A stretch of DNA of 64,000 nt from Streptomyces hokutonensis (GCF_000376565.1 NZ_BARG01000030.1:124001-188000), one strand, 5' to 3'; shown: positions 51,095 to 64,000, numbered from the stretch's first letter. Notes: generated from the sequence alone by a model not told the origin. Program-made: numbers and translations.

Positions 51095-53788
51095 GTGGAC
51101 GACCGGGACCTTCGGACCCTGTTCAGTTCGAACGACCGGAGCATCTCCGCGAGCGAGGCGTTCACGAACCGCCAGGCGCAGTGGCAGACGGTCACAGAAT
51201 GCCTGGCGGAGCACCTGAGCCGGGTCAGCGCGCCGGGTTTCGACGCGGAGGACTTGGAAAGCCCCCGCCGCAACGTCCTCGTGTTCCATGGAGTCGGCGG
51301 GATCGGGAAGTCGACGCTCTCGCGCAAGATCGAGGCCGTCCTGGCGCGAGGGGACGACCGGCCGCCGCAGTGGGCGCCGCCGGCGTACCTGCACCGGCAC
51401 CGCGTGATCCCGGTGCGCATCGACCTCGCCCGCTCGGCGAACACCGACTTCGAGCGTGTCATCCTCTCCGTCCGGCTCGCGCTCACCGTCATGGGGCGAC
51501 CGATGCCCGCCTTCGATCTCGCCCTGCGCCGCTACTGGGAGCACAACCACCCCGGCGAGCCGATCGAGGAACACCTGCGCCGCGGCGGACTCCTCGGCCG
51601 GTTCAGCGCCGCGGCCGCGCTGCCGCAGCACATGCAGTCCGTGCTCAGCGACGTCGCCCAGGCCCTCCTGCTGCCCGGCACGGTCGGCAGCGCTATGGGG
51701 CACGGCACCGGCGCCCTAGTCAGGGCGCTGCGCGAGCGGCGGCAGGCCGTACGCGCCCTCGCCGGCTGCACGCGCCTCGCCGACCTCCTCGAAGCCGAGC
51801 CCGGTCCGGACGCCCTCAGCTTCTACCCGCACCTCCTCGCCTGGGACCTCGCACAACTCCCGACGGCTAAGCGGACGTTGCCCGTGGTCCTGCTCGACAC
51901 GTTCGAGGACATCGGTGACCGCACACACCGCGACGTAGAACGGCTGCTCCAGCGGCTCGTCTGGCTCATGCCGAACGCGTTCTTCATCGTCACCGGACGC
52001 AACCGGCTGCAGTGGGGCGACGAAGCGCTCGCCGGCCAACTCGACTGGGCCGGGCCGGGAGCCTGGCCTGGCCTGCAACCGCCCGTCGCCTCACAGGCCC
52101 GCACAAGCATCAACGTGACTGAACCGGCGTCCCGCCAGATCCTGATCGGCGACTTCTCTCCCGAAGACTGCGAGGACTACCTCGCCCGTCGCCTCGTGAA
52201 GGACCGACAGCCGTTGATCGACATGCCGATACGCCGGGTCATCGCCGAACGCTCCCACGGCCTGCCGCTGTACCTGGACCTAGCGGTCATGCGCTACCTC
52301 GAACTGCGCCGGGGCGGCGCACAGCCCCAACTCGCCGACTTCGACCACGACTTCCCGGCACTGATCACCCGCACCCTGAGCGACCTCACCCTCGACGAGC
52401 GGCATGTGCTGCGGTCGGTCAGCCTGTTCAACGCCTTCTCCGTCCCGCTCGCCGCCAAGGCCTCCGGCCTGGAGTACGACGCTCCCGTCCTCCGTCTGGT
52501 CGAGCGGCCCTTCGTGCGGGAGACCGTCAACGAGCGGTGGCCCTTCCACCTGCACGACGTCATACGCGCCGCCATCCGCAACGCATCCGACACCGGTGAC
52601 GACCGCTGGTCGCAGCGGGACTGGCAGCGCGCCGCTCAGCGTGCTTTCACAGCTCTGGCCGACGAATGGCGCCACGGCCCGCGACGGGACCGCGCGCTGC
52701 TGCTCGGCTGCCTTCGACAAGGCCTTTGGCTCGCCCGCGAGTTCCAGCTGGAGCTCGATTGGCTCATCGACGCCGCCTTCCAGTACGTAGCCGACTCCAT
52801 CTGGGAACCACTCGTCCTGCCGGATGCTGATGACGCCCTGGGAGTTGGCGCGGGCACGCCGGCCGCCGCCCTGGTGGACACGCTCAGCGCGGTCGCACGT
52901 CGCCAGCACGAGCACCGTGAACGTACGGTCAGTCGGCTGTCGGCGGTCCTCACGTCGGGACTGCTGCCCGACGAACTCGCGGATCTCGCCCTGTACTACC
53001 GCTCCAAGGCGCAACGCGATCTCGGTCTGACCGACGCCTCACGTGACGGCATGAGACACGTCGTCGCGGGTCAAGGGCGGTTGGCGCCGGCCGCGCGGCG
53101 CGGCCTGGCGCATCTGAGCCGCTTGGCCGGAGACTTCCCTGCCGCCCTGGAGGCCGCCGGGGAACTCGGATGGGAAGGACGGCACCACCGGGTCATGGGC
53201 GACGTGTGGTGGGTACAGGGCGATATCGACCGTGCGGTCGCGGCCTACCGGGCCGGACGCGACGAAGCGGAACAGCACGGGGTCGTGGGCGAGACAGCCG
53301 TAGCGCAGGCCCACCTCGCCTTCGCCGCGGCCCTGGCCGACCCTGCGCGCGCGGATGATGAACTCGACCTGGCCGAACGGATGCTGGAGTCCCTCAGCCT
53401 GCGCTCCAACGAGATCACCGCCCGCATCGCCGGTCTCGTACGCGATGCCGGACGGGGCGCTGACGTCCTCGATCGGGGTGCGGTGCTGCGTGCGGAGATC
53501 GATGTCTCGGGGATCGCCTACGCGGCCGCCAAACTCCAACTGGCCCTGTGCTTTCACCACGCGGTACTCGGCGATGACGCGGGGCTCCAGCTTGCGATCG
53601 ATCAGTTGAGAGGGCTCACCCGCCGAGGCGGTTACGCGTACTACGTCGACATCGCGTACTTCATGGGCGACCTGCCGCTGCCCGTGGCCGCCCCTGGGCC
53701 GCGGTGGGTGGATGGACAGCGGAGGACGCGGCAACGGTGGAGAGGGCTGGTGACGGCACGCCGTCGACTGCTGGGGTTGCCGGCCTGA
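51095..53788 (+). CDS. STAND-type P-loop NTPase with C-terminal helical repeats
   Basis: GTG 51095 is behind AGAGGGGG. The 897-residue protein has Walker A GVGGIGKST at residues 66-74 and a Walker B-like VVLLDTFED at about 265. A sensor-like FIVTGRNRLQWG lies near 295 and the NB-ARC type SHGLPLYLDLA near 389. A winged-helix region follows (LSDLTLDERHVLRSVSLFNA). From about 560 to the end it is helical, with TPR-like repeats. Only about 60 residues precede the P-loop, so no known N-terminal effector domain is present. STAND proteins are signal-triggered oligomeric switches and many bacterial ones act in phage defence, but this one has no visible effector or partner. It ends 59 bases from the Tn7-like module's tniQ stop. 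Confidence 0.8.
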   Translation: MDDRDLRTLFSSNDRSISASEAFTNRQAQWQTVTECLAEHLSRVSAPGFDAEDLESPRRNVLVFHGVGGIGKSTLSRKIEAVLARGDDRPPQWAPPAYLHRHRVIPVRIDLARSANTDFERVILSVRLALTVMGRPMPAFDLALRRYWEHNHPGEPIEEHLRRGGLLGRFSAAAALPQHMQSVLSDVAQALLLPGTVGSAMGHGTGALVRALRERRQAVRALAGCTRLADLLEAEPGPDALSFYPHLLAWDLAQLPTAKRTLPVVLLDTFEDIGDRTHRDVERLLQRLVWLMPNAFFIVTGRNRLQWGDEALAGQLDWAGPGAWPGLQPPVASQARTSINVTEPASRQILIGDFSPEDCEDYLARRLVKDRQPLIDMPIRRVIAERSHGLPLYLDLAVMRYLELRRGGAQPQLADFDHDFPALITRTLSDLTLDERHVLRSVSLFNAFSVPLAAKASGLEYDAPVLRLVERPFVRETVNERWPFHLHDVIRAAIRNASDTGDDRWSQRDWQRAAQRAFTALADEWRHGPRRDRALLLGCLRQGLWLAREFQLELDWLIDAAFQYVADSIWEPLVLPDADDALGVGAGTPAAALVDTLSAVARRQHEHRERTVSRLSAVLTSGLLPDELADLALYYRSKAQRDLGLTDASRDGMRHVVAGQGRLAPAARRGLAHLSRLAGDFPAALEAAGELGWEGRHHRVMGDVWWVQGDIDRAVAAYRAGRDEAEQHGVVGETAVAQAHLAFAAALADPARADDELDLAERMLESLSLRSNEITARIAGLVRDAGRGADVLDRGAVLRAEIDVSGIAYAAAKLQLALCFHHAVLGDDAGLQLAIDQLRGLTRRGGYAYYVDIAYFMGDLPLPVAAPGPRWVDGQRRTRQRWRGLVTARRRLLGLPA

Positions 53789-53847: not shown

Positions 53848-55815
53848 TCATGCCCATCGCGAGTTGCGCTGGGCGACGGCGACCGGCAAGCCTCCCCGAT
53901 CCCCATCTTCCTCCCCGAGCCGCGCGGCGTAGCGTGCGATGCGGTGACGCAGTTCGAGGCGGCCGCCGCGGTGGTTGGCCGGCGTGAAGAAAGCGGAGAG
54001 TTCGTCGATCAGCCGGGCGATGCCGGTAGGGCCGCTGCGCATTCTGTCCAGCAGTGGGCACAGGTGATAGTCGGCCTGGGTGGCTTCGGTCCATGCCAGC
54101 ACGGTGCCGAGAGTTGTGCCGTACTGGGCGGTGAACCGGTCCGCCTGCCGCACGTCGGAGCAGAGCGCGGTCCAGTCCTCGTCTGGCATCTGCCATTCAG
54201 CCAGGGCGCGGCGGCGCCGGGCGTAGTTGATGCGCTCGGGAAGGACGTCTAGGTGGTGGGCGAGCGCTTCGGTGACGTCCTCGAAGCGTGTCCATAAACC
54301 GCTGTCGCCGAACTGGTGGCGGAGCTTGACGAGTGCGCTGTGGGCTTGACCGACAGGGATGTCGAGGGCTTCGGCACAGTTCCGCCATGATCCACCGGCA
54401 GCCATTTCGGCGAGTTTCAGGGAGGCCGCGCGCCGCAGGTGGCGCACCGTGTACAGGTTGGCCAGGGGAACGTGGGCGGCGAAGTCGCCGAAGTACTTGT
54501 CGTACCAGGACGTCGGGAGATGGGAGGGTACCTCTTCGACGGTGAAGCGGCAGGCGCGAGAGGGAACCCGCAGGGTGGCGTACTCCAGGGGGCCGGCGGC
54601 GTAGAAGCCGTGCACGCGGCGGGCCATGGCCCGCGCCAGGCCTGGTGAGAAGTCCGGCCGGCTGAAGAAGGACCGGCACGCGCTCGCGGGTGCGTTCTCG
54701 AAGGCGAACTGCGCCAGGGGGCGGACGCGTTCCCGCAATGCGGCCTCGTCGGGAGCCTCGTCCAACAGGGCCTTCGCGCTCAGGAGCAGCGCCCCGCATT
54801 GAGCACTGTCCTGCGGTGCGGACCACAGGAGCCGGAGCTGAGCGTTGCGCCGGGCGGGCGCCTTGAGGAGGTGCGCGTGAATGGGGGCCGCGTACTCGTC
54901 GATGAGCGAAGCGAGCCCGTCCGATGGGGCGAGATTTCTCCCAGCGGGCCAGCTCAGGGTGAGTAACTGGGCGATGGGGATGAGCTCTTGGATGGTCCAG
55001 CCACGAGGTTGCTCCTCATCCACGGAAGCTGCTGCGGGGAACAGGAGCTGATCGAGCTGGCGCTGCAGCTCGATGAGGTGCGCGTGGTCCGCAGGGGAAA
55101 CCTGCGTCTGCACGTCGTGGTCGGTCGGCTGGTCGAGGCGCGCGCCGCAGAGGCGTACGCGAGAGACGCGATCGCCCGATCCGGGGACAGTGTTGCGGCA
55201 CTGGACAGGATGCAGGCGAACACTGTTCGAGGGCTGGGTGATCAATGTGGCGCGGCCCGCGTAGGACTGGTTGATCGGCTTGCGGCAGGAGGGGCACCGT
55301 ACGTCTAGGAGCCGTTGGTGCTGCGAGCAAGCGAAGACGACCGGCAGGTGCCAGCGCAGACTCCACGCGCCGCCGTACGCGACTTGGACCGCACTGCTGT
55401 CGCCGACGAGACAGTCGGGGCAGTAGCGGCTGGAGAAGTTCACGCTCCAGGACGCCGAATAGAAGTGGCTGACGCTGCCGAAGTATCCCTTCCGACCCGT
55501 CTGAGGGGATTCAGCTCCTCGCTTCACCCGTAGCGCCGGATAGGTCCTCGCGTACCGCATCAGCGCGAGGCCTCGTACTTCGGCTTCCGACAGGCCACTC
55601 TCCTGCGCGAACGCGGTGGCCGTGTCTGCGGGCAGTTCGAGCAGGTGGTCGGCGACGAGGCGACGCTGGCGACCGTCGCTGATCCCGCACAGCTCGGCGA
55701 TGCGCCCTGGGGAGCGGCCGAGCCGGTAGGCGAGCCGGAGGAGATACCCCGGCAGGGACTCCTCCGGCAGCGGGTCCATGGAGCGGGCCAGCACACGACG
55801 CCGTACCTCGCTCAT
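53848..55815 (-). CDS. tniQ: TniQ/TnsD family target-selection protein, operon copy
   Basis: ATG 55815 overlaps the TniB stop (ATGA) and gives 655 residues. The N-terminal TniQ domain reads PLPEESLPGYLLRLAYRLGR, then ELCGISDGRQ. Zinc-binding motifs are CPDC (132-135), CSQH (163-166) and CPSC (174-177), after the conserved GGAWSLRWHLPVVFACSQHQ. The long C-terminal half (about 400 residues) includes helix-turn-helix-like stretches such as GGSWRNCAEALDIPVGQAHS, as in TnsD proteins that bind a specific attachment site. TniQ/TnsD proteins connect the TniB/TnsC ATPase to the target DNA. It is the last gene of the leftward transposition operon. A paralogue is encoded divergently at 60622. Confidence 0.88.
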   Translation of the reverse strand: MSEVRRRVLARSMDPLPEESLPGYLLRLAYRLGRSPGRIAELCGISDGRQRRLVADHLLELPADTATAFAQESGLSEAEVRGLALMRYARTYPALRVKRGAESPQTGRKGYFGSVSHFYSASWSVNFSSRYCPDCLVGDSSAVQVAYGGAWSLRWHLPVVFACSQHQRLLDVRCPSCRKPINQSYAGRATLITQPSNSVRLHPVQCRNTVPGSGDRVSRVRLCGARLDQPTDHDVQTQVSPADHAHLIELQRQLDQLLFPAAASVDEEQPRGWTIQELIPIAQLLTLSWPAGRNLAPSDGLASLIDEYAAPIHAHLLKAPARRNAQLRLLWSAPQDSAQCGALLLSAKALLDEAPDEAALRERVRPLAQFAFENAPASACRSFFSRPDFSPGLARAMARRVHGFYAAGPLEYATLRVPSRACRFTVEEVPSHLPTSWYDKYFGDFAAHVPLANLYTVRHLRRAASLKLAEMAAGGSWRNCAEALDIPVGQAHSALVKLRHQFGDSGLWTRFEDVTEALAHHLDVLPERINYARRRRALAEWQMPDEDWTALCSDVRQADRFTAQYGTTLGTVLAWTEATQADYHLCPLLDRMRSGPTGIARLIDELSAFFTPANHRGGRLELRHRIARYAARLGEEDGDRGGLPVAVAQRNSRWA

Positions 55816-57059
55816 CCGGCGTCTTTCTGGGCCGGGCCGTCGTCGTCGAACACGGTGTTGCGGCCTTGGGAGTTCTTCTTCTGCGTCGGCTCGTGGGGCG
55901 GGATGTGGGGCTGTTCGCCTGACCCGGCGTCGAGGTCGGGCATGTCGTCCGGGGTGACCGTGAACTGGTTGAGCAGCCCCTTGGTCAGGCGCTCGCTCTT
56001 GTCCTCCATGGCGCGGCGGCAGCCGTGCTGGATGAGCTTCTCCAGGATGCCGACGACGCCCTTGGTGCGGTTGAACAGGTACTCGGGCATGTCGCCCTCG
56101 GTGAGCATGCCGGTGGTGTCGCTCAGCAGGCGCAACTCGCCCTCCAAGCGGCGGAGATGGACCATCCAGGCCTCCATCTGCGCTGGTGTCTTGTACCTGA
56201 ACGGGTCGAGGTCGACGACCTGGAAGCGGCGTTCGTGCTGGCTTGCGGCGTGGGCGTTGGGGCTGCGGCCGGCGTCCTTGACCGGCTCGTAGATCCACTC
56301 CTGGGTCTTGGGGTCGCGGCGGCCTTCGCGCAGCAGGCCCGAGGTGGGGATGCCGACGCCGACGAGGATGAGGGTGACGGGCATGCTCATCATTTCGCGG
56401 ATCAGGTCGAGGACGTCCTGGTCGGCTTCGCGATGCAGCTTGAGGCGGGTGATGTCGTCGATCACGAGGGCCTTCGTGGCGTGCTCGACGACTGCGGTCT
56501 TGACGGTGCGCACGAGGTCTTCCAGTCGCATGCCCTTGTAGTCCTCGCCGTAGAAGTCGAGGATGCGCTGGCAGGTGGAGATGGGGGTGGCCTTGACGGG
56601 GCAGCGTACGTAGGCGACGGGGGCGACCAGGTCGCGGGTGCCGGGCATGGCGTCGGGGTTCGCGTAGTTGTTCAGGGCCAGCCACTCTTCCTGGAAGATG
56701 GCCAGGGCCTCGCAGATGGTCTCGGTCTTGCCCTGGGCGCCGTCGCCGTTGACCATGATGCCGCCGCGGGTTCCGGCCTTGTGGCTGAAGGCGCCGTCCT
56801 CGACGCGGGCGAGGACGGCGTGGGCGACGCGTTCGCTCATGGGGGTGGCCTGGATCGGCAGGGAGCTGTGCGTCGCGAGGCGATGCAGATCGTGGATGCG
56901 TTTCTGGCGCTTCGTGAGGCGTTTGTACTGCTCAGCGGTGAGGATCGGCGCAGGGACGAAGGCGTCGCGGGTCTCGCACCATCGGTTCCAGCCTTCGAAG
57001 GTGGTGCGGTCCACCGCCGGGCCGGGAAGGAACGACAGCGGGTTCTGCTTCGAGGTCAC
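55812..57059 (-). CDS. tniB: TniB/TnsC-family AAA+ transposition ATPase
   Basis: The 415-residue AAA+ protein overlaps both neighbours by four bases. Walker A is GDGAQGKT (105-112), Walker B is ALVIDDITRL (Asp201-Asp202), and a sensor region TLILVGVGIPTSGLL follows. An N-terminal helical part with YKRLTKRQKRIHDLHRLA resembles the TniB entry. The C-terminal 60 residues are acidic and polar. In Tn7 and Tn5053 relatives this ATPase forms filaments on DNA, receives the target signal from TniQ/TnsD and activates the transposase. The coupled order TnsA-TniA-TniB-TniQ is that of Tn7-like elements. Confidence 0.9.
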   Translation of the reverse strand: MTSKQNPLSFLPGPAVDRTTFEGWNRWCETRDAFVPAPILTAEQYKRLTKRQKRIHDLHRLATHSSLPIQATPMSERVAHAVLARVEDGAFSHKAGTRGGIMVNGDGAQGKTETICEALAIFQEEWLALNNYANPDAMPGTRDLVAPVAYVRCPVKATPISTCQRILDFYGEDYKGMRLEDLVRTVKTAVVEHATKALVIDDITRLKLHREADQDVLDLIREMMSMPVTLILVGVGIPTSGLLREGRRDPKTQEWIYEPVKDAGRSPNAHAASQHERRFQVVDLDPFRYKTPAQMEAWMVHLRRLEGELRLLSDTTGMLTEGDMPEYLFNRTKGVVGILEKLIQHGCRRAMEDKSERLTKGLLNQFTVTPDDMPDLDAGSGEQPHIPPHEPTQKKNSQGRNTVFDDDGPAQKDAG

Positions 57060-59470
57060 TGACTGGCCTCTTCCTCGGCCTCGCCGGCCGTGATGGTGGA
57101 GTCGTCATCGTCAAAGTCGTCGTCCAGCAGCGCCATCAAGCTCGACGAGCGCAGCCGTTCGGACAGATCGGGGGACGTGGGCAGCTCGTCGGGGACCGCT
57201 GCCTCGCGACGGCGCCGACGTTCGCTGTTCACCGCGTCGTGTACTTGCTGAGCGCGGTCCTTCGGGCGCAGGGGGACGACCTTGCTGTCAGAGAAACCTG
57301 CCCGCGCAGAGGGAACGGGGGCGGGTTGCGGCGACTTCCTCTCGGTCGCGTCTGCGGGGCGGTCGGCGGCCGCCGCGGCCCGCTGGGCGACTTCGCGCGC
57401 GTGCTCGGTGCGCTTCCTCTTGGAGAGCTGTGTCGGCCACTTCTCGACCGGGATGTTGCCACCGATCAACTCCAGGAGCACCGGGAGGAGTTCGGTGTCC
57501 GACTTCGGGGCAAGGCCTGTCTTGCGTAGTTCTCGCATGGCTTCACGGACGCGGGCGTCGCTGAACGCGGGAACCTCGCCTTCTTCGGGCAGTCCGGTCC
57601 AGCGCAGTGTGTGCCAGTCGTGCGTATTGGGGTCCTGGAAGAAGACGAAGCATGGGTCACGTGGGTCGCGGTGGACGACGTATTTGTTCTTGTCCGTCCC
57701 GCCGCGGTGGGAGAGCTTGCCGCGGTAGGGATCCAGGGCGGGGCCGTCGTACCAGAGGTTCTTGACCTTCACCCCGCGCCTGCCGTGGATCATGAGCTTG
57801 TGCCGCGGCAGGAGCTGATAGTACAGCTCGGCGGGCGGAATCCGAAGGGCGAAGCCGCCCTGGGACATGGCCGCCGTGAACAGGCTGTTGGGGCTGTGAT
57901 CGCCACGCGGGTCCCAGCTCGGGGCGTACGAGCCGAAGCGCCGGTTCTGCCAGGTCTCGACAACCCAGGTGGCGATAACGTGTTCCATCTCCGTCACGGT
58001 CAGGCAGGCGTCGGCCTCAGGGTCCACGCCCCGGTCGGCGACGTCCGTGCCCTGGTAGCCGAGCAGGAGGGCGAACAGCAGCGACCTGATGGCGCCGAAC
58101 GTCCGCTCCACGGAGTGCTTGTCGGTCGGACGCAGAACGCGGCTGGGCTTGATGTTCGCCTTGATGACCCGCTGCACCTCGACGAGGTGGTGGTTGCGGT
58201 AGACGGAGCCGTGGTCGGTGGTGACCGTCTCGGGAGGGAAGAACGGCAGCCCGGCGACCTCGTACCCGGCGAACTCCGCGACCACCATGTTGGGGACGCC
58301 GGGGTAGGCCCACTCCACATTCTTGCCCCACTCCGGGCGCATCGGCAGCGGCATCATCATGTCCCGCAGCACCATCGCGACGTCGATCGACTTGTCGGAG
58401 ACAAGACTGAGCCGGAACGCCACGATCGAGCGGGTGTAGACGTCCAATGCCAGCGTCAGATGTACGGACACCGGGTCGCCGAACACGTTGTCCAGTACTT
58501 TCACCGGCAGCACCGTGCTGTCCAGGGCCACCACCTGGCCGGGGCGGTGCACCACGACGTGCCGTCCTGTCGCGTACTGCTGGGCCTTCGCCGCCGAGCG
58601 TGCGTAGCGCTGCCGCGCACCGTTGGAGCCGAACCACTCCTTCCAGATGGCCCGTAGGGTGTCGTAGTTGGGGATCTGCACGCGCGGCTTCTCAGCGGGT
58701 TCAGCATCTGTAGCTTTACCCTCCGTGCCTCCTGTTGCATCGCCGTCTTTGGGCTTGGTATCCGGGGCCTCGAAAACCTCGCGCACGTACTGGTGGATGA
58801 GACGCTGTTTGTCCCGCATGGTCAGCTTCGAGCGGCGAGTCGTCGACTCCGCGTACACCGCGAACAACGCCTCGCGCACTTCGGGGGTGATCGTGTGCCC
58901 GGTCGCCTCGCGCAGCCAGCGGTCGTCCGCGACGCCGATCGGGCCGTATTTCGCCCGCGCAGTGTCCCAGCGGATCAGCGTGCGCACACTCACCCGGTGC
59001 AGCCCGTTCGCTTTCGCTTGGGCGGGAGCTTCGGCCGCGGTCTTGCGAAGTTCGTTCTCCTTGGCGTGGCGGCGATCGGTCAGCGTCGTGGTGTCCGGGT
59101 TGTACTGCGGTCGTGGTTCATGCGGCAACGCGTCACACGGATCGCCGCTGCGAAACCCCGTTTCGGCCTCCCGCAAGTGCTCCATACGGAGCATGACGAT
59201 CTCGCGCTGATGCTCCGTAAGGTCGTCCATCGACTTGGGCTGACGGCCCCGGTCCGCGGCGGGCAGGTCCGTGCGGGTTCGCGTGGAGGGGCGACAGTCC
59301 GGGCGATGCATCAGTTCGCTGATCGAGGTCTTCCACGTCTCGCCATCCTCGTCGACGAGCGTGACCCGGCCGAGGTGCGGCAGGCAGGACTGGATCCGCC
59401 ACGCGCTGCCGTTGATGATCAGCTCGGCGCCGGTCGACAGATTCCACATGGGATCGAGGGAAGTGCTCAC
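57056..59470 (-). CDS. tniA: TniA/TnsB-family DDE transposase
   Basis: GTG 59470 overlaps the TnsA-like stop (GTGA) and gives 804 residues. The catalytic triad is complete: Asp317 in VVALDSTVLPV, Asp419 in TVTTDHGSVY and Glu455 in DKHSVERTFGA, with the canonical 35-residue D-E spacing. N-terminal helix-turn-helix segments that bind the element ends precede it. The Mu-type C-terminal beta domain (LLPRHKLMIHGRRGVKVKNL) follows. The last 150 residues are charged and end in a very acidic tail, where TnsB-type proteins contact their ATPase. It cuts and joins the 3' ends of the element. No frame damage is seen. Confidence 0.92.
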   Translation of the reverse strand: MSTSLDPMWNLSTGAELIINGSAWRIQSCLPHLGRVTLVDEDGETWKTSISELMHRPDCRPSTRTRTDLPAADRGRQPKSMDDLTEHQREIVMLRMEHLREAETGFRSGDPCDALPHEPRPQYNPDTTTLTDRRHAKENELRKTAAEAPAQAKANGLHRVSVRTLIRWDTARAKYGPIGVADDRWLREATGHTITPEVREALFAVYAESTTRRSKLTMRDKQRLIHQYVREVFEAPDTKPKDGDATGGTEGKATDAEPAEKPRVQIPNYDTLRAIWKEWFGSNGARQRYARSAAKAQQYATGRHVVVHRPGQVVALDSTVLPVKVLDNVFGDPVSVHLTLALDVYTRSIVAFRLSLVSDKSIDVAMVLRDMMMPLPMRPEWGKNVEWAYPGVPNMVVAEFAGYEVAGLPFFPPETVTTDHGSVYRNHHLVEVQRVIKANIKPSRVLRPTDKHSVERTFGAIRSLLFALLLGYQGTDVADRGVDPEADACLTVTEMEHVIATWVVETWQNRRFGSYAPSWDPRGDHSPNSLFTAAMSQGGFALRIPPAELYYQLLPRHKLMIHGRRGVKVKNLWYDGPALDPYRGKLSHRGGTDKNKYVVHRDPRDPCFVFFQDPNTHDWHTLRWTGLPEEGEVPAFSDARVREAMRELRKTGLAPKSDTELLPVLLELIGGNIPVEKWPTQLSKRKRTEHAREVAQRAAAAADRPADATERKSPQPAPVPSARAGFSDSKVVPLRPKDRAQQVHDAVNSERRRRREAAVPDELPTSPDLSERLRSSSLMALLDDDFDDDDSTITAGEAEEEASQ

Positions 59471-60348
59471 TGCGGCAGCTGCCGGTGATGCTGCTGAGGA
59501 GCGAGCCGCACCAGGCTCGCGTCCCCGAACGGCCCGGAGAGATCCACGCCGAGGTGACGGTGCCACAGCAGGTGGATCGCATGGGCCCGGGCGATCGCCG
59601 GGATGCGGCAGCGCTGCGCCAACTCGCCGAACGGCAAGGGGCCTTGTGCCGCCACTTCCTGTAATTGCTCTTGGATTCCCAGCACATCCGGCAGCGGACG
59701 CCGCTCTGCGGAGAGCGCGTCCACGTTTGTCCATACGTGCTGGCGCCAGCCCACCACGACGCCGTACTGCCAGCCCGCCGACAATGCCGCCTCCGCCGCC
59801 GCGGCGAACTTCAGCGCGTCTTCCCGCTTGATCCGGCCGTCCGGACGTACGTCGATCAGGACGAGCCCAGACTCCGTCACGAGCAGGAAGTCCGGGGTGT
59901 GCCGGATCACCTTGCCGCCGGAGAAGAACCGCAGCAGGAAGGGCTGGCACAGGGCCTCAATCAGGCCGGCGGCGAAGTCGGCCACCAGCAGCAGCCGCTC
60001 CTCCTCATGGCTCTCGAAACCGTGGTGCCGGTCCGTCGCCATCAGGTACTCGAGACCCGGGCGGTGGAACTGGTCCGTGCGCCAGGTGAAACGGCGTACT
60101 GGAACGCTCCGCCGGAGATCCACCTTGTCCAGGTCACGCACCGGGCTGGTGACCGGAGTCTGGCCGAACTTCCACATCGTGCTCCAGCGCTCGGGCCACG
60201 CCCCATCCAGGTCCAATGCTTGTGCGTAGTCCGTGAAACCGGAATCCAGCACGGCGAGGTCTTCCAGGGCGCACACGTCCGACCACGTGCCCCCATGGGA
60301 CGGTGTCGATCCGGTGCGCCAGCCCTGCCCCAAAGCTGTCGAATTCAT
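59467..60348 (-). CDS. tnsA: TnsA-like endonuclease
   Basis: ATG 60348 gives 293 residues; the open frame extends upstream without similarity. The nuclease core shows ESHEEERLLLVADF (candidate Glu116 or Glu117), HTPDFLL with Asp153, and LVLIDVRPDGRIKRED with Asp166. This is the E...D...DxR/K pattern of TnsA-type restriction-like nucleases, with Arg168 where many have Lys or Arg. TnsA cuts the 5' ends, so that the element moves by cut-and-paste instead of by cointegrate. The C-terminal 90 residues include a winged-helix-like part (LPFGELAQRCRIPAIARAHA) as in TnsA. Overlap with the transposase gene supports joint function. Confidence 0.82.
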   Translation of the reverse strand: MNSTALGQGWRTGSTPSHGGTWSDVCALEDLAVLDSGFTDYAQALDLDGAWPERWSTMWKFGQTPVTSPVRDLDKVDLRRSVPVRRFTWRTDQFHRPGLEYLMATDRHHGFESHEEERLLLVADFAAGLIEALCQPFLLRFFSGGKVIRHTPDFLLVTESGLVLIDVRPDGRIKREDALKFAAAAEAALSAGWQYGVVVGWRQHVWTNVDALSAERRPLPDVLGIQEQLQEVAAQGPLPFGELAQRCRIPAIARAHAIHLLWHRHLGVDLSGPFGDASLVRLAPQQHHRQLPQ

Positions 60349-60621
60349 CCGAGAGTGCCTGCCTCCGCACCGTGATGGGTAAGCCCAAAAGCGCATTGAC
60401 CGTACGGCGCTCAGCCCGCCCCGAGTGGCCGCCCGTTCGCAACTCACGCGTACGAGTGAAAATCTGACCGTTTCCCTGTTGCCACAGACGGCCGGCTGAT
60501 TCGTTACGCGGAGTTCCAGATGGCCACTGTGGTTACGGCGCACGGATTCCGTCGATCTCAAGTTCCCAAGGGGGGCTCCCATAGTGGCGTCGGTGTCGGG
60601 CATGGCGGCAGGAGGAATGGT
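60349..60621. promoter_or_regulatory. divergent promoter region between tnsA and the second tniQ
   Basis: No gene is supported in these 273 bases. ACTCACGCGTACGAGTGA at about 60441-60458 has ACTC/GAGT symmetry and could be an operator or a transposase site. I could not identify repeated 20-base TnsB-type sites here by eye. Confidence 0.45.
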
Positions 60622-62679
60622 GTGGTCACTGATCGACTTGCGCGCAGCCTGACACCGCTGCCTGAGGAGTCCTTGCCCGGATTCGTGCTGCGTCTGGCGT
60701 ACCGTCTGGAGCGGTCCCCTCTGCGGATCGGCGAACTATGCGGTCTTGTCGACCAGGGGCGGCTCAACAGTCTGTACCTCAGGGCTATTCCGGACGATGT
60801 CCTGGCCGTCTTCGCCTCGGTGACACACCTGGCGCATGAGGAGGCTGAGCGGCTCACTTTGCGCCGTTTTAAGCGGGTTTACCGCCCTCTGGCTAGGGTG
60901 CGCACGAACACGGCGCGCATCGGAGCCAGTGCATCCACTAATTGGGCCGTGAACCAGTCGAGCCGCTACTGTCCCGACTGCCTGCGGGGTAACGGCAGTC
61001 AGCAGGAGAGCCTCTATGGAGGCGCATGGCGGTTGCAATGGCACCTGCCGATCGTCTTCGCTTGCCTGCCCCACCGTCGCCTCCTGGAATACCTCTGCCC
61101 GGATTGCGGGCTTCCCGTGAACGGTCCAACCAGTGGGCGTCGCGACCTGGTGAAGAACGCCGGGATGCCCGGACAACATCCCGCCGAATGCCGCAACAGG
61201 CCCGGAGCGGAACGCAGCCACACGGTTCATTGGAGGGGAATTCCACCGTGCCCCGGCAGGCTCGATCAGCGAGGCGACGGGATGTGCGCTCGCCCAATAC
61301 TGCAGACCGATGACCTTGAACGTCTCTTGTCATTGCAGCAGCGCATCTGGCGCCACTTGAATCCGGACCCGGCTGCGTCGAGCATGAGCGGTGCCGCGGA
61401 GTCGGATGCGACGTACTTTCCGGACCTCATTGCGATGACGCATCTGATCAAGATGACGTGGCCGCTGGGAGCTGAGCTCCTTCCCTCCTCCTGCCTTGTC
61501 GATCTCGTCGGCACCCACGCGGAACCCGCCGCAGCGCTCATCAGCGCAGATCGTAAGGAAAGGCGCAGCCTGAGTCTGGTCGGGACCAAGGCACCTCCGA
61601 GTGATCCGGACGTGTGTGGGGCCTTGCTCCTCGCGGCCGACACGCTGCTGGGCGATCGCCAACTTGCTTCTCTCCGCAGTCGCGTCAATCCGCTTGCGCG
61701 CGAGGCCTATCGACGCTCTCCCCCCTACGCCGGAAGTGTCCTGCGGAAGCAGGACATTTCAAACACATTGTCACGAGCGGTCGCCCGGCGCCTTCATGGC
61801 GTCCCGACTCTCGCCCGCCATCGTGAAATCCGCCCCTCACACCAATTTCGCGCGGAGGACATTCCCGCTTACGTGCCCCGCGTGTGGTTCCAGCGGCACT
61901 TCGCTGGAATCGTTGAGGCGTTGCCGAGGAGGGACTGGCAGACCGAGCGTTGTCTGCGGCGGGCCGCCTCACTGCGCCTCGCTGAACTCCTCACCGGGAA
62001 GCGCTGGATCGAGTGTGCGCCCCTACTCGGGATGCCCAATGGGAGTGCGCAAAGCACGCTCCTTCGGATTGGGCCCCGTCTGGACGCCGCAGGTCTGTGG
62101 CCGTCTTTTGAAGACGCTGCCGAGCGCGTCGCTCAGGATCTGAGTGGGGCGGTGTTCCGCGTGAACTTTGCTAACAGGCGTCGGTTAATGGCAAATTGGC
62201 GCATGCGAGCGAGCGATTGGAACGTCATGCGGGAGGGACTCCCTGGCCTTACTGAGCACGGGGCCCATGCGGATCCACGCCTCGCCTCGATCTGTGTCTG
62301 GAGTGAAGTCACGCAAGGTGAGCACATCTACAGTCCTACAGTGCTTGAACTGCGCAGCCTAGGCAGTACCAGCGAAGCCCGTCGGCTTGGCGGATGTGCC
62401 GGCAAATTCATGAACGTCGATCACGATGGCGCGACTTTGAGGCTGCGTCGGAGGCTCTACCTGTACGCGGACCGGCTGGCGCTTGCGTGTGATCTCGACC
62501 GAGAGCAGAGCATTCCGGTCGACGAGATCGTCCGAGAAGAGACGGAGTCCGAGACCGTGCCCCATGTCCGGCCGCTAGTCGAGGCTTACCAAGCCGAACT
62601 TGAGCTCTGGCGGCGCACTGTACGGGATGGGCGGCGTGGCCGCGCCGCCCGGAAGGCACTGCGCGCCCCAAGCGTTTGA
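60622..62679 (+). CDS. tniQ: second TniQ/TnsD family protein, divergent copy
   Basis: GTG 60622 lies five bases after GGAGGA and gives 685 residues. It is clearly paralogous to the operon copy: LTPLPEESLPGFVLRLAYRL and RSPLRIGELCG align, zinc motifs are CPDC (117-120), CLPH (148-151) and CPDC (159-162), and GGAWRLQWHLPIVFACLPHR is shared. The C-terminal halves are related but strongly diverged, as expected if they recognise different target DNA. Codon use is less GC-biased than in its neighbours, and a TTA leucine codon occurs at 62185-62187, so it may have come from another source or be bldA-dependent. It probably gives the element a second targeting pathway. Confidence 0.88.
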   Translation: MVTDRLARSLTPLPEESLPGFVLRLAYRLERSPLRIGELCGLVDQGRLNSLYLRAIPDDVLAVFASVTHLAHEEAERLTLRRFKRVYRPLARVRTNTARIGASASTNWAVNQSSRYCPDCLRGNGSQQESLYGGAWRLQWHLPIVFACLPHRRLLEYLCPDCGLPVNGPTSGRRDLVKNAGMPGQHPAECRNRPGAERSHTVHWRGIPPCPGRLDQRGDGMCARPILQTDDLERLLSLQQRIWRHLNPDPAASSMSGAAESDATYFPDLIAMTHLIKMTWPLGAELLPSSCLVDLVGTHAEPAAALISADRKERRSLSLVGTKAPPSDPDVCGALLLAADTLLGDRQLASLRSRVNPLAREAYRRSPPYAGSVLRKQDISNTLSRAVARRLHGVPTLARHREIRPSHQFRAEDIPAYVPRVWFQRHFAGIVEALPRRDWQTERCLRRAASLRLAELLTGKRWIECAPLLGMPNGSAQSTLLRIGPRLDAAGLWPSFEDAAERVAQDLSGAVFRVNFANRRRLMANWRMRASDWNVMREGLPGLTEHGAHADPRLASICVWSEVTQGEHIYSPTVLELRSLGSTSEARRLGGCAGKFMNVDHDGATLRLRRRLYLYADRLALACDLDREQSIPVDEIVREETESETVPHVRPLVEAYQAELELWRRTVRDGRRGRAARKALRAPSV

Positions 62680-62822: not shown

Positions 62823-64000
62823 TTACCGCAGCGTATGCCGGTAGCCCTCGAGTCGGTTGATCAGGATCTCCCCGTCGGGGGTCAGGACGTGAGGCTCGTG
62901 CACTCCCATGTCGGCCAGGAGGTCGGAGACGAGTGCGCAGGCCACGACAACGGCCTCTCGCTGGTCGGTGACAATGGCGGAGAGATCGCCAGTGGTCTGC
63001 GCAGGAGCTGCTGGGAGCGGCGTCGCAGGGCCGTGGTGGAAGGTGTGCTCCGACGCGATCAGGTGCACGGGCTTGTCTCTGTTGTCGAAGCGGTGGAGTG
63101 CGGCGGACAGCATCAGGTCGCCGGCCGATCCGGTCTCCGCCGCCCAGGCTGCGGCAGCCTGTACCAGGGCCACGACGTCGAGTTCGAGTCCGCGCTGGAA
63201 CAGCCGCTTGGGGCCGTCGTCGTTGGTGTGGTCGCTCTGGAGGTTGATGGGCACCGCCGCGTAGAAGCTGCCGTCCTGGTGGAGTTGGCCGGTCGGTACG
63301 CCCTCGAAGCGGACCTGGCGGCGGCCAACCAGCACGGGGCGGGCCGGTTGCACGTTGGTGGTCACACCTTCGCCGGCGAGCTTGACGAAGCGGTCGAACG
63401 CCGCGTCCCGATCCACTCGTGTGGTCACGGGATAGGCGCCGCGGACGGCCGGAACGGCGGCCATGCTGACCCAGCCCGGGTAGTAGGTCACCTTGGGGCT
63501 GCCGCCGTGGGCCGTGCTGGTCAAGTAGCCCGAGAGGTAGCCGAAGCCCGCGTCAGTGACCTGGTGGAGACGGTCGATGTCGTCGGAGGCGGCCTGGAAG
63601 CGGTCACGGTAGCGCTGGGCGATCTCGGACTCGGCAAGGGTGCGGGTCGTGGTGCCGTGCCGGACGTAGACACGGAAGTGGTAGTCGTTGCCTGGGGCTG
63701 CGACCGCGTGCGGGGCCTGGGTGCTCGCGGGCACGGTGAGGACCCAGTAGATCTTGCCCACCTTGCTCTCGGACTTCAGCGGTCGTACGCCGACGTTGGG
63801 TACGACGGGCTGGATCCAGTTCGCGAGCACGGAGCGGATCCATTCCTCGCCGTGGCCTTGGACCGGGTCGAAGGGGGCCAAGTCGTGGGCGTGGTCCTGA
63901 TTGCCGTCGTCGACGCCGATGACGACCATGCCGCCGGCGGTGTTGGCCATGGCGGACACGTCCTTGGCGAGTTCCTTCTTGCCCGCGTCGGTGCCCTTAT
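62823..64000 (-). CDS. AlbA_2/Schlafen-type putative DNA-binding protein (partial, 5' end beyond the right edge)
   Basis: About 391 codons are present; the start lies outside the window. The N-terminal part visible is KELAKDVSAMANTAGGMVVI followed by GVDDG, the signature of the AlbA_2 (Slfn AAA_4) domain, in which the NTxGGxxxIGVxD motif binds nucleic acid or nucleotide. A longer beta-rich middle (YHFRVYVRHGTTTRTLAESEIA) and a C-terminal unknown part follow. Streptomyces carry many such proteins, often in mobile or defence regions, but their function is little known. It is convergent with the second tniQ. Confidence 0.75.
   Translation of the reverse strand, partial: KGTDAGKKELAKDVSAMANTAGGMVVIGVDDGNQDHAHDLAPFDPVQGHGEEWIRSVLANWIQPVVPNVGVRPLKSESKVGKIYWVLTVPASTQAPHAVAAPGNDYHFRVYVRHGTTTRTLAESEIAQRYRDRFQAASDDIDRLHQVTDAGFGYLSGYLTSTAHGGSPKVTYYPGWVSMAAVPAVRGAYPVTTRVDRDAAFDRFVKLAGEGVTTNVQPARPVLVGRRQVRFEGVPTGQLHQDGSFYAAVPINLQSDHTNDDGPKRLFQRGLELDVVALVQAAAAWAAETGSAGDLMLSAALHRFDNRDKPVHLIASEHTFHHGPATPLPAAPAQTTGDLSAIVTDQREAVVVACALVSDLLADMGVHEPHVLTPDGEILINRLEGYRHTLR

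Follow-up and report, generated by a model that had tools for sequence, protein, structure and literature searches.

Tn7 is a transposon of about 14 kb that encodes TnsA, the DDE transposase TnsB, the AAA+ ATPase TnsC and two target selectors, TnsD (a TniQ protein) and TnsE, and it inserts at attTn7 after glmS. In this study, a related element was analyzed in Streptomyces hokutonensis. The starting point was a stretch of 64,000 nucleotides (the window; contig C149:124001-188000 of an 11.83-Mb genome, G000), in which a Tn7-like, CRISPR-free transposition module with two TniQ proteins had been predicted from the sequence alone. Benler et al. 2021 (PMC8649781) scanned 125 kb around tnsB and described 6,549 Tn7-like elements with medians of 14–29 kb and a longest element of 140 kb, including an Actinobacteria-dominated clade without an experimentally characterised member. 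Faure et al. 2023 (PMC10293859) reported 1,048 dual TniQ-TnsD loci, usually with one protein longer than 400 amino acids and the other substantially smaller; two TniQs per element were therefore already known. Tn7706 of Rhodococcus erythropolis (PMC12915292) is an actinobacterial Tn7-like element with tnsA, tnsB, tniB and tniQ.

The element in S. hokutonensis resembled Tn7 in encoding a TnsA-like nuclease, a DDE TnsB, an AAA+ TnsC and TniQ/TnsD together, in its terminal TGT with subterminal repeats, in its 5-bp target duplication and in its insertion at a short fixed distance past a conserved gene that is kept intact. Unlike Tn7, it measures about 143 kb and holds three TniQs of TnsD size between one pair of ends, and no TnsE was seen in the element. 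Tn7 inserts after glmS, whereas this element family was found 15–18 bp past potD and 5–8 bp past an acyl-CoA dehydrogenase gene. The element shares with the dual loci of Faure et al. more than one TniQ/TnsD and a modular target selection, but its three TniQs are 647–685 amino acids long, and some are 125 kb apart or divergent. Compared with the survey of Benler et al., tnsB here lies 130 kb from the left end, and homing sites are defined; the element very likely falls in the same broad group as their Actinobacteria-dominated clade, though it was not placed in that tree. Tn7706, unlike this element, is 19.4 kb, multicopy and mostly on plasmids. Taken together, the locus is probably a very large Tn7-like transposon of an actinobacterial branch, in which TniQ1 would be the potD selector, TniQ2 and TniQ3 would act elsewhere, and a large element (B) and a small neighbor (A) would move as one composite unit. 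The transposition genes are as follows.

53848-55815, minus strand: TniQ1, 655 amino acids, TnsD-size, adjoining TnsC (PF06527 at 1e-19)
55812-57059, minus strand: TnsC, AAA+ ATPase, 415 amino acids (AAA_22 at 1e-9)
57056-59449, minus strand: TnsB, DDE transposase, 797 amino acids
59467-60396, minus strand: TnsA-like endonuclease, 309 amino acids if translation begins with the ATG at 60396, which is not certain
60622-62679, plus strand: TniQ2, 685 amino acids, divergent from tnsA (PF06527 at 2e-20), grouped in the tree with the TniQ of G324
Contig C149:51012-52955, outside the window: TniQ3, the third full-length TniQ

All five window genes were found with open frames, with 4-bp overlaps at TniQ1/TnsC and TnsC/TnsB and a gap of 17 bp between TnsB and TnsA. 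TnsB matched the PADLOC TnsB (2e-19) and solved TnsB structures (9e-20). Its DDE triad was D310/D412/E448, numbered from MWNL, and was unchanged across nine homologues; the triad predicted as D317, D419 and E455 named the right residues, but its numbering started 7 residues upstream of MWNL. TnsC carried Walker A (GDGAQGKT) and Walker B (ALVIDD) motifs. The predicted intactness of the frames was confirmed. TnsA matched NCBIfam TnsA_like_Actin NF033179 at 132.9 bits (cut-off 110), and the Pfam TnsA N domain was slightly below cut-off. At the place where Tn7 TnsA presumably has its catalytic lysine, the protein carries DVRP, which is found family-wide (66 of 68 loci).

The Cys/His positions of TniQ were unvarying across 23 proteins, consistent with the zinc motifs predicted for both window TniQs. 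Identity between TniQ1 and TniQ2 was 45% in residues 1–230 and 32% in residues 231–655; the C-terminal halves are indeed less alike, but the strong difference claimed for them was overstated. In an AlphaFold2 model of TniQ1 (predicted local distance difference test score 80), residues 1–381 aligned with TnsD of the TnsD-TnsC-DNA complex 8v32 (Z 12.8, root-mean-square deviation 5.6, 234 aligned), and the DnaA DNA-binding domain was matched by residues 424–526 (Z 5.3, deviation 4.2, 85 aligned). These alignments fit a C-terminal half of TniQ1 that would read DNA, short of proof. The remaining PDB matches were weak and were set aside.

Two other system types were considered. A Tn5053/Tn402-like element (TniABQ, no TnsA) was ruled out by the TnsA-like gene. 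For a transposon associated with clustered regularly interspaced short palindromic repeats (CRISPR), the 190-kb contig C149 showed no CRISPR-like repeat, an Rfam scan of 44–64 kb gave no CRISPR, and there was no Cas match among the scanned proteins (a sample of the cargo genes included), in agreement with the earlier statement that no Cas gene or CRISPR is near. The family matches, ends and duplications bore out the original prediction of a Tn7-like, CRISPR-free, multi-TniQ module; its count of two TniQs has to be raised to three.

Element B spans C149:50770-189375, with 138,606 bp between its outer bases, or from about -73230 to 65375 in window numbering. The module had been delimited at 53848-62679, and this did not hold, since the element is far larger and contains the entire window. 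Its left end lies 18 bp past the intact stop of a potD-like gene and reads TGTGACGAGGATTTTTAGTTGGCAC, with a second copy, TAGTTGGCAC, 20 bp after it. The right end, at C149:189351-189375, is inverted and reads TGTGACCAGGAACGCTAGTTGACAC. The ends start with TGT and carry inverted TnsB-type repeats (TGTGAC[C/G]AGGA....TAGTTG[G/A]CAC), and the only two good motif matches in C149 were these two ends. The right end of B holds fewer motif copies than that of the potD element in G068. TniQ3 is at the left end, lying 242 bp inside it and about 125 kb from the other TniQ genes; the right-hand part of B holds TnsABC together with TniQ1 and TniQ2.

Five base pairs, CGGCT, separate the right end of B from the left end of element A, a non-autonomous element of 4.1 kb with B-type ends and a TerD-domain gene. 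A closes 4.1 kb further on with a right-end motif, and the sequence beyond is syntenic with the potD-downstream chromosome of relatives. Tandem insertion at one site would be expected to leave such an inner junction, with a right end and a left end 5 bp apart, and the same spacing is present in S. caniscabiei (L123). B alone was dropped as the mobile unit because its outer 5-mers were unlike (TGCCC, CGGCT), whereas those of the composite of about 142,711 bp were perfectly matched (TGCCC in C149, TGCCC in C43). Judged by these flanks, transposition paired the left end of B with the right end of A.

S. justiciae 3R004 (G150, locus L121) holds the same element at the same potD site. The two copies shared 99.2% identity across 80 kb, 99.8% across 28 kb and 99.9% across 20 kb. 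In the adjoining chromosome, on the side of potD, identity was only 85.9%, so by that measure S. justiciae 3R004 is a separate species. The first 600 bp within the left end were 100% identical, and just outside the terminal TGT there was no ungapped alignment; the other end behaved likewise. The outer 5-mers of the S. justiciae composite were CGACT/CGACT, again perfect. Since perfect duplications differ at one site in two species, one unit of about 143 kb appears, from these flanks, to have been inserted independently in each. A segment of about 3 kb left of the window (C149:57160-60131) is present in G000 and mostly missing from the S. justiciae copy.

The original prediction had been made to depend on end repeats and empty sites. 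It survived this check: inverted TnsB-type repeats and 5-bp duplications were found, the junction in one relative (G001) lacked the 138.6 kb, and other relatives had potD and no element. In G001, potD and 43 bp of the left end are fused straight to A (95% identical), with 138,568 bp absent. It was rejected as a clean empty site because of the retained 43 bp and the unmatched outer 5-mers (TAATG, GTCCG).

The distribution of the family was investigated by searching 393 Streptomyces genomes for the left-end pattern with up to 3 mismatches, with the reversed pattern as control. The motif was found in 61 genomes, and the control gave 0. Outside sequence could be read for 46 ends: 26 were 5–8 bp past the acyl-CoA dehydrogenase stop, 9 were 15–18 bp past potD, 3 adjoined another element and 8 were elsewhere. 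Matching 5-mers also occurred in several relatives. At the dehydrogenase site, the large relatives with both ends and matching 5-mers were G322 (82.3 kb, CGCCT/CGCCT), G317 (84.8 kb, GCGTG/GCGTG) and G361 (96.7 kb, GCGAG/GCGAG), and the 5-mers of G193 (88.7 kb) were unmatched. The G068 element at potD is 66.0 kb with both ends and a 4/5 match (TGCAC/CGCAC). No flank was common to G000 and G068, because the left end of G068 is 66 kb away. The left-end sequence was also found on Streptomyces linear plasmids, with neither potD nor the dehydrogenase gene annotated beside it. For a gene shared among the remaining insertion places, tblastx gave no clear result.

To relate TniQs to sites, 80 loci with related TnsB were surveyed for TniQ number, and a tree of 38 TniQ proteins was built. 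The close group typically had two TniQs near tnsC (three in L126), and distant loci mostly had one; by this count, at least two TniQs are usual in the clade and not special to the S. hokutonensis genome. A 100/100 clade of 12 proteins contained exactly one TniQ from each of the eight intact dehydrogenase-site elements (L122, L123, L125, L132, L134, L167, G176 and G322). G000 and G068, both at potD, had no TniQ of this clade. Their TniQs beside tnsC, 58% identical, formed a separate 100/100 pair. The association of clade and site gave a Fisher's exact p of 0.022, with shared ancestry ignored. The accessory TniQs crossed sites: TniQ3 occurs in G000 at potD and, 89% identical, in G176 at the dehydrogenase gene, and an upstream TniQ (61%) is shared by G068, a potD element, and L132, which is at the dehydrogenase gene. 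These patterns suggested that TniQ1 selects the potD 3' end and that TniQ2 and TniQ3 may serve other targets.

By analogy with Tn7, TnsB with TnsA would cut and join the ends, and TnsC would connect them to target-bound TniQ. TniQ1 would read the potD 3' end as Tn7 TnsD reads glmS, and TniQ2 and TniQ3 would guide other insertions. Related elements, whose target is the 3' end of the acyl-CoA dehydrogenase gene, would have a different TniQ in the role of TniQ1, so that changing this TniQ would change the chromosomal address. A broader reading, on balance modestly favored, is a giant Streptomyces Tn7-like family with an exchangeable address TniQ (potD or dehydrogenase), in which extra TnsD-size TniQs provide separate, possibly plasmid-directed routes, and non-autonomous satellites that insert in tandem at these sites can be co-mobilised with the main element as a unit of about 143 kb.

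Several observations weigh against TniQ1 as potD selector and against the composite unit. Only two potD lineages had intact machinery. The site label over all TniQs was unclustered on the tree (the dehydrogenase label took 12 changes, and 201 of 500 shuffles were as low). Only the sub-clade pattern carries signal, and the selector claim thus stands on that pattern and the two crossed pairs. L124 is a partial counterexample, since it has a clade protein but lies within a methyltransferase gene; a second targeting route would also agree with this position. In the S. hokutonensis genome, the composite is split over contigs C149 and C43, and the 11-bp gap was taken from S. justiciae. The inner 5-mer CGGCT is one base off CGACT; with this mismatch and the G001 remnant, its 43 bp and unmatched 5-mers included, the history of the B/A tandem is only partly accounted for.

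It is unlikely that the TniQs are partly redundant or cooperating and that site preference reflects the shared history of whole elements. The small number of independent potD lineages and the TnsD size of all TniQs agree with this explanation. However, TnsC was 92–93% identical to that of L122, L123 and L132, and the TniQs of those loci were just 35–40% identical, which argues that selectors were exchanged against a constant core; moreover, accessory TniQs cross sites and the clade protein does not. A selector role for TniQ3 at potD, leaving TniQ1 and TniQ2 for other targets, was judged quite improbable. TniQ3 adjoins the potD junction in both species carrying the element, but its 89% identical relative in G176 is beside the left end at the dehydrogenase gene, an 86% identical remnant is beside the left end in G329, and G068 at potD has no close TniQ3. 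Sharing of the island by homologous recombination at potD instead of transposition would account for the same chromosomal position in both genomes, but it is very improbable given that similarity breaks off precisely with the terminal TGT on one side, that the opposite end shows the same pattern, and that the duplicated 5-mers are unlike (TGCCC vs CGACT).

A literature search, incomplete in coverage, gave no paper on Streptomyces Tn7-type TnsA elements with an acyl-CoA dehydrogenase site. Within that coverage, no description was found of the potD and dehydrogenase sites, the three full-size TniQs, the composite moved as a unit or the TniQ-site correlation, and these appear new. With two natural attachment sites, exact ends, duplications and candidate selectors now defined, the assignment of each TniQ to its site becomes directly testable. 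If TniQ1 and the clade TniQ act as proposed, Streptomyces would offer two native sites for protein-guided insertion; if the composite is one unit, a single transposon can carry over 140 kb of accessory genes from one species to another.

A clade TniQ (E ≤ 1e-40) was absent from 26 of the 38 left-end genomes searched, so many ends are satellites or remnants. Two candidate non-autonomous satellites with family ends and no tnsABC were G150:C19:91399-95499 (4.1 kb, with a TerD gene) and G247:C1:8014767-8018637 (3.9 kb, with a TniQ fragment). Distant single-TniQ relatives (among L137-L199, e.g., L139, L146, L165, L170, L176, L177, L181 and L199), many of them shorter than 15 kb, had clear ends and matching 5-bp flanks, both within the respective locus; the wider family therefore looks mobile. 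L136, L143 and L145 (Streptomyces, Catenulispora and Nonomuraea) are contigs of 7.0–7.5 kb starting at or within one base of the terminal TGT, as expected for a multicopy element breaking the assembly. In G085 (L059, G085:C14, 18325-23807 in contig numbering), other genes, about 5.5 kb in all, interrupt tnsC; the machinery of this related element has apparently received an insertion.

The other features of the window are as follows.

1-64000: interior of the element, with accessory cargo in its left part; cargo is patchy in relatives
51095-53788, plus strand: cargo gene beside TniQ1, 897-amino-acid protein with a Walker-A-like GVGGIGKST motif
62823-64000, minus strand: cargo gene for an SLFN/AlbA_2-domain protein (PF04326 at 1.5e-7), located between TniQ2 and the right end

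The SLFN/AlbA_2 gene extends to contig position 188130, just beyond the window. The 897-amino-acid protein had no match in Pfam and PADLOC searches. A tRNA-Gly (ccc) called by ARAGORN at 52009-52095 on the minus strand lies within its reading frame; the call is probably spurious, and it is not located at an element end. Left of the window, the cargo holds three molybdenum-hydroxylase-type gene sets with 2Fe-2S and molybdenum cofactor (MoCo) domains (C149:60866-65750, 81306-84990 and 121581-122153), as well as other repeated catabolic genes.

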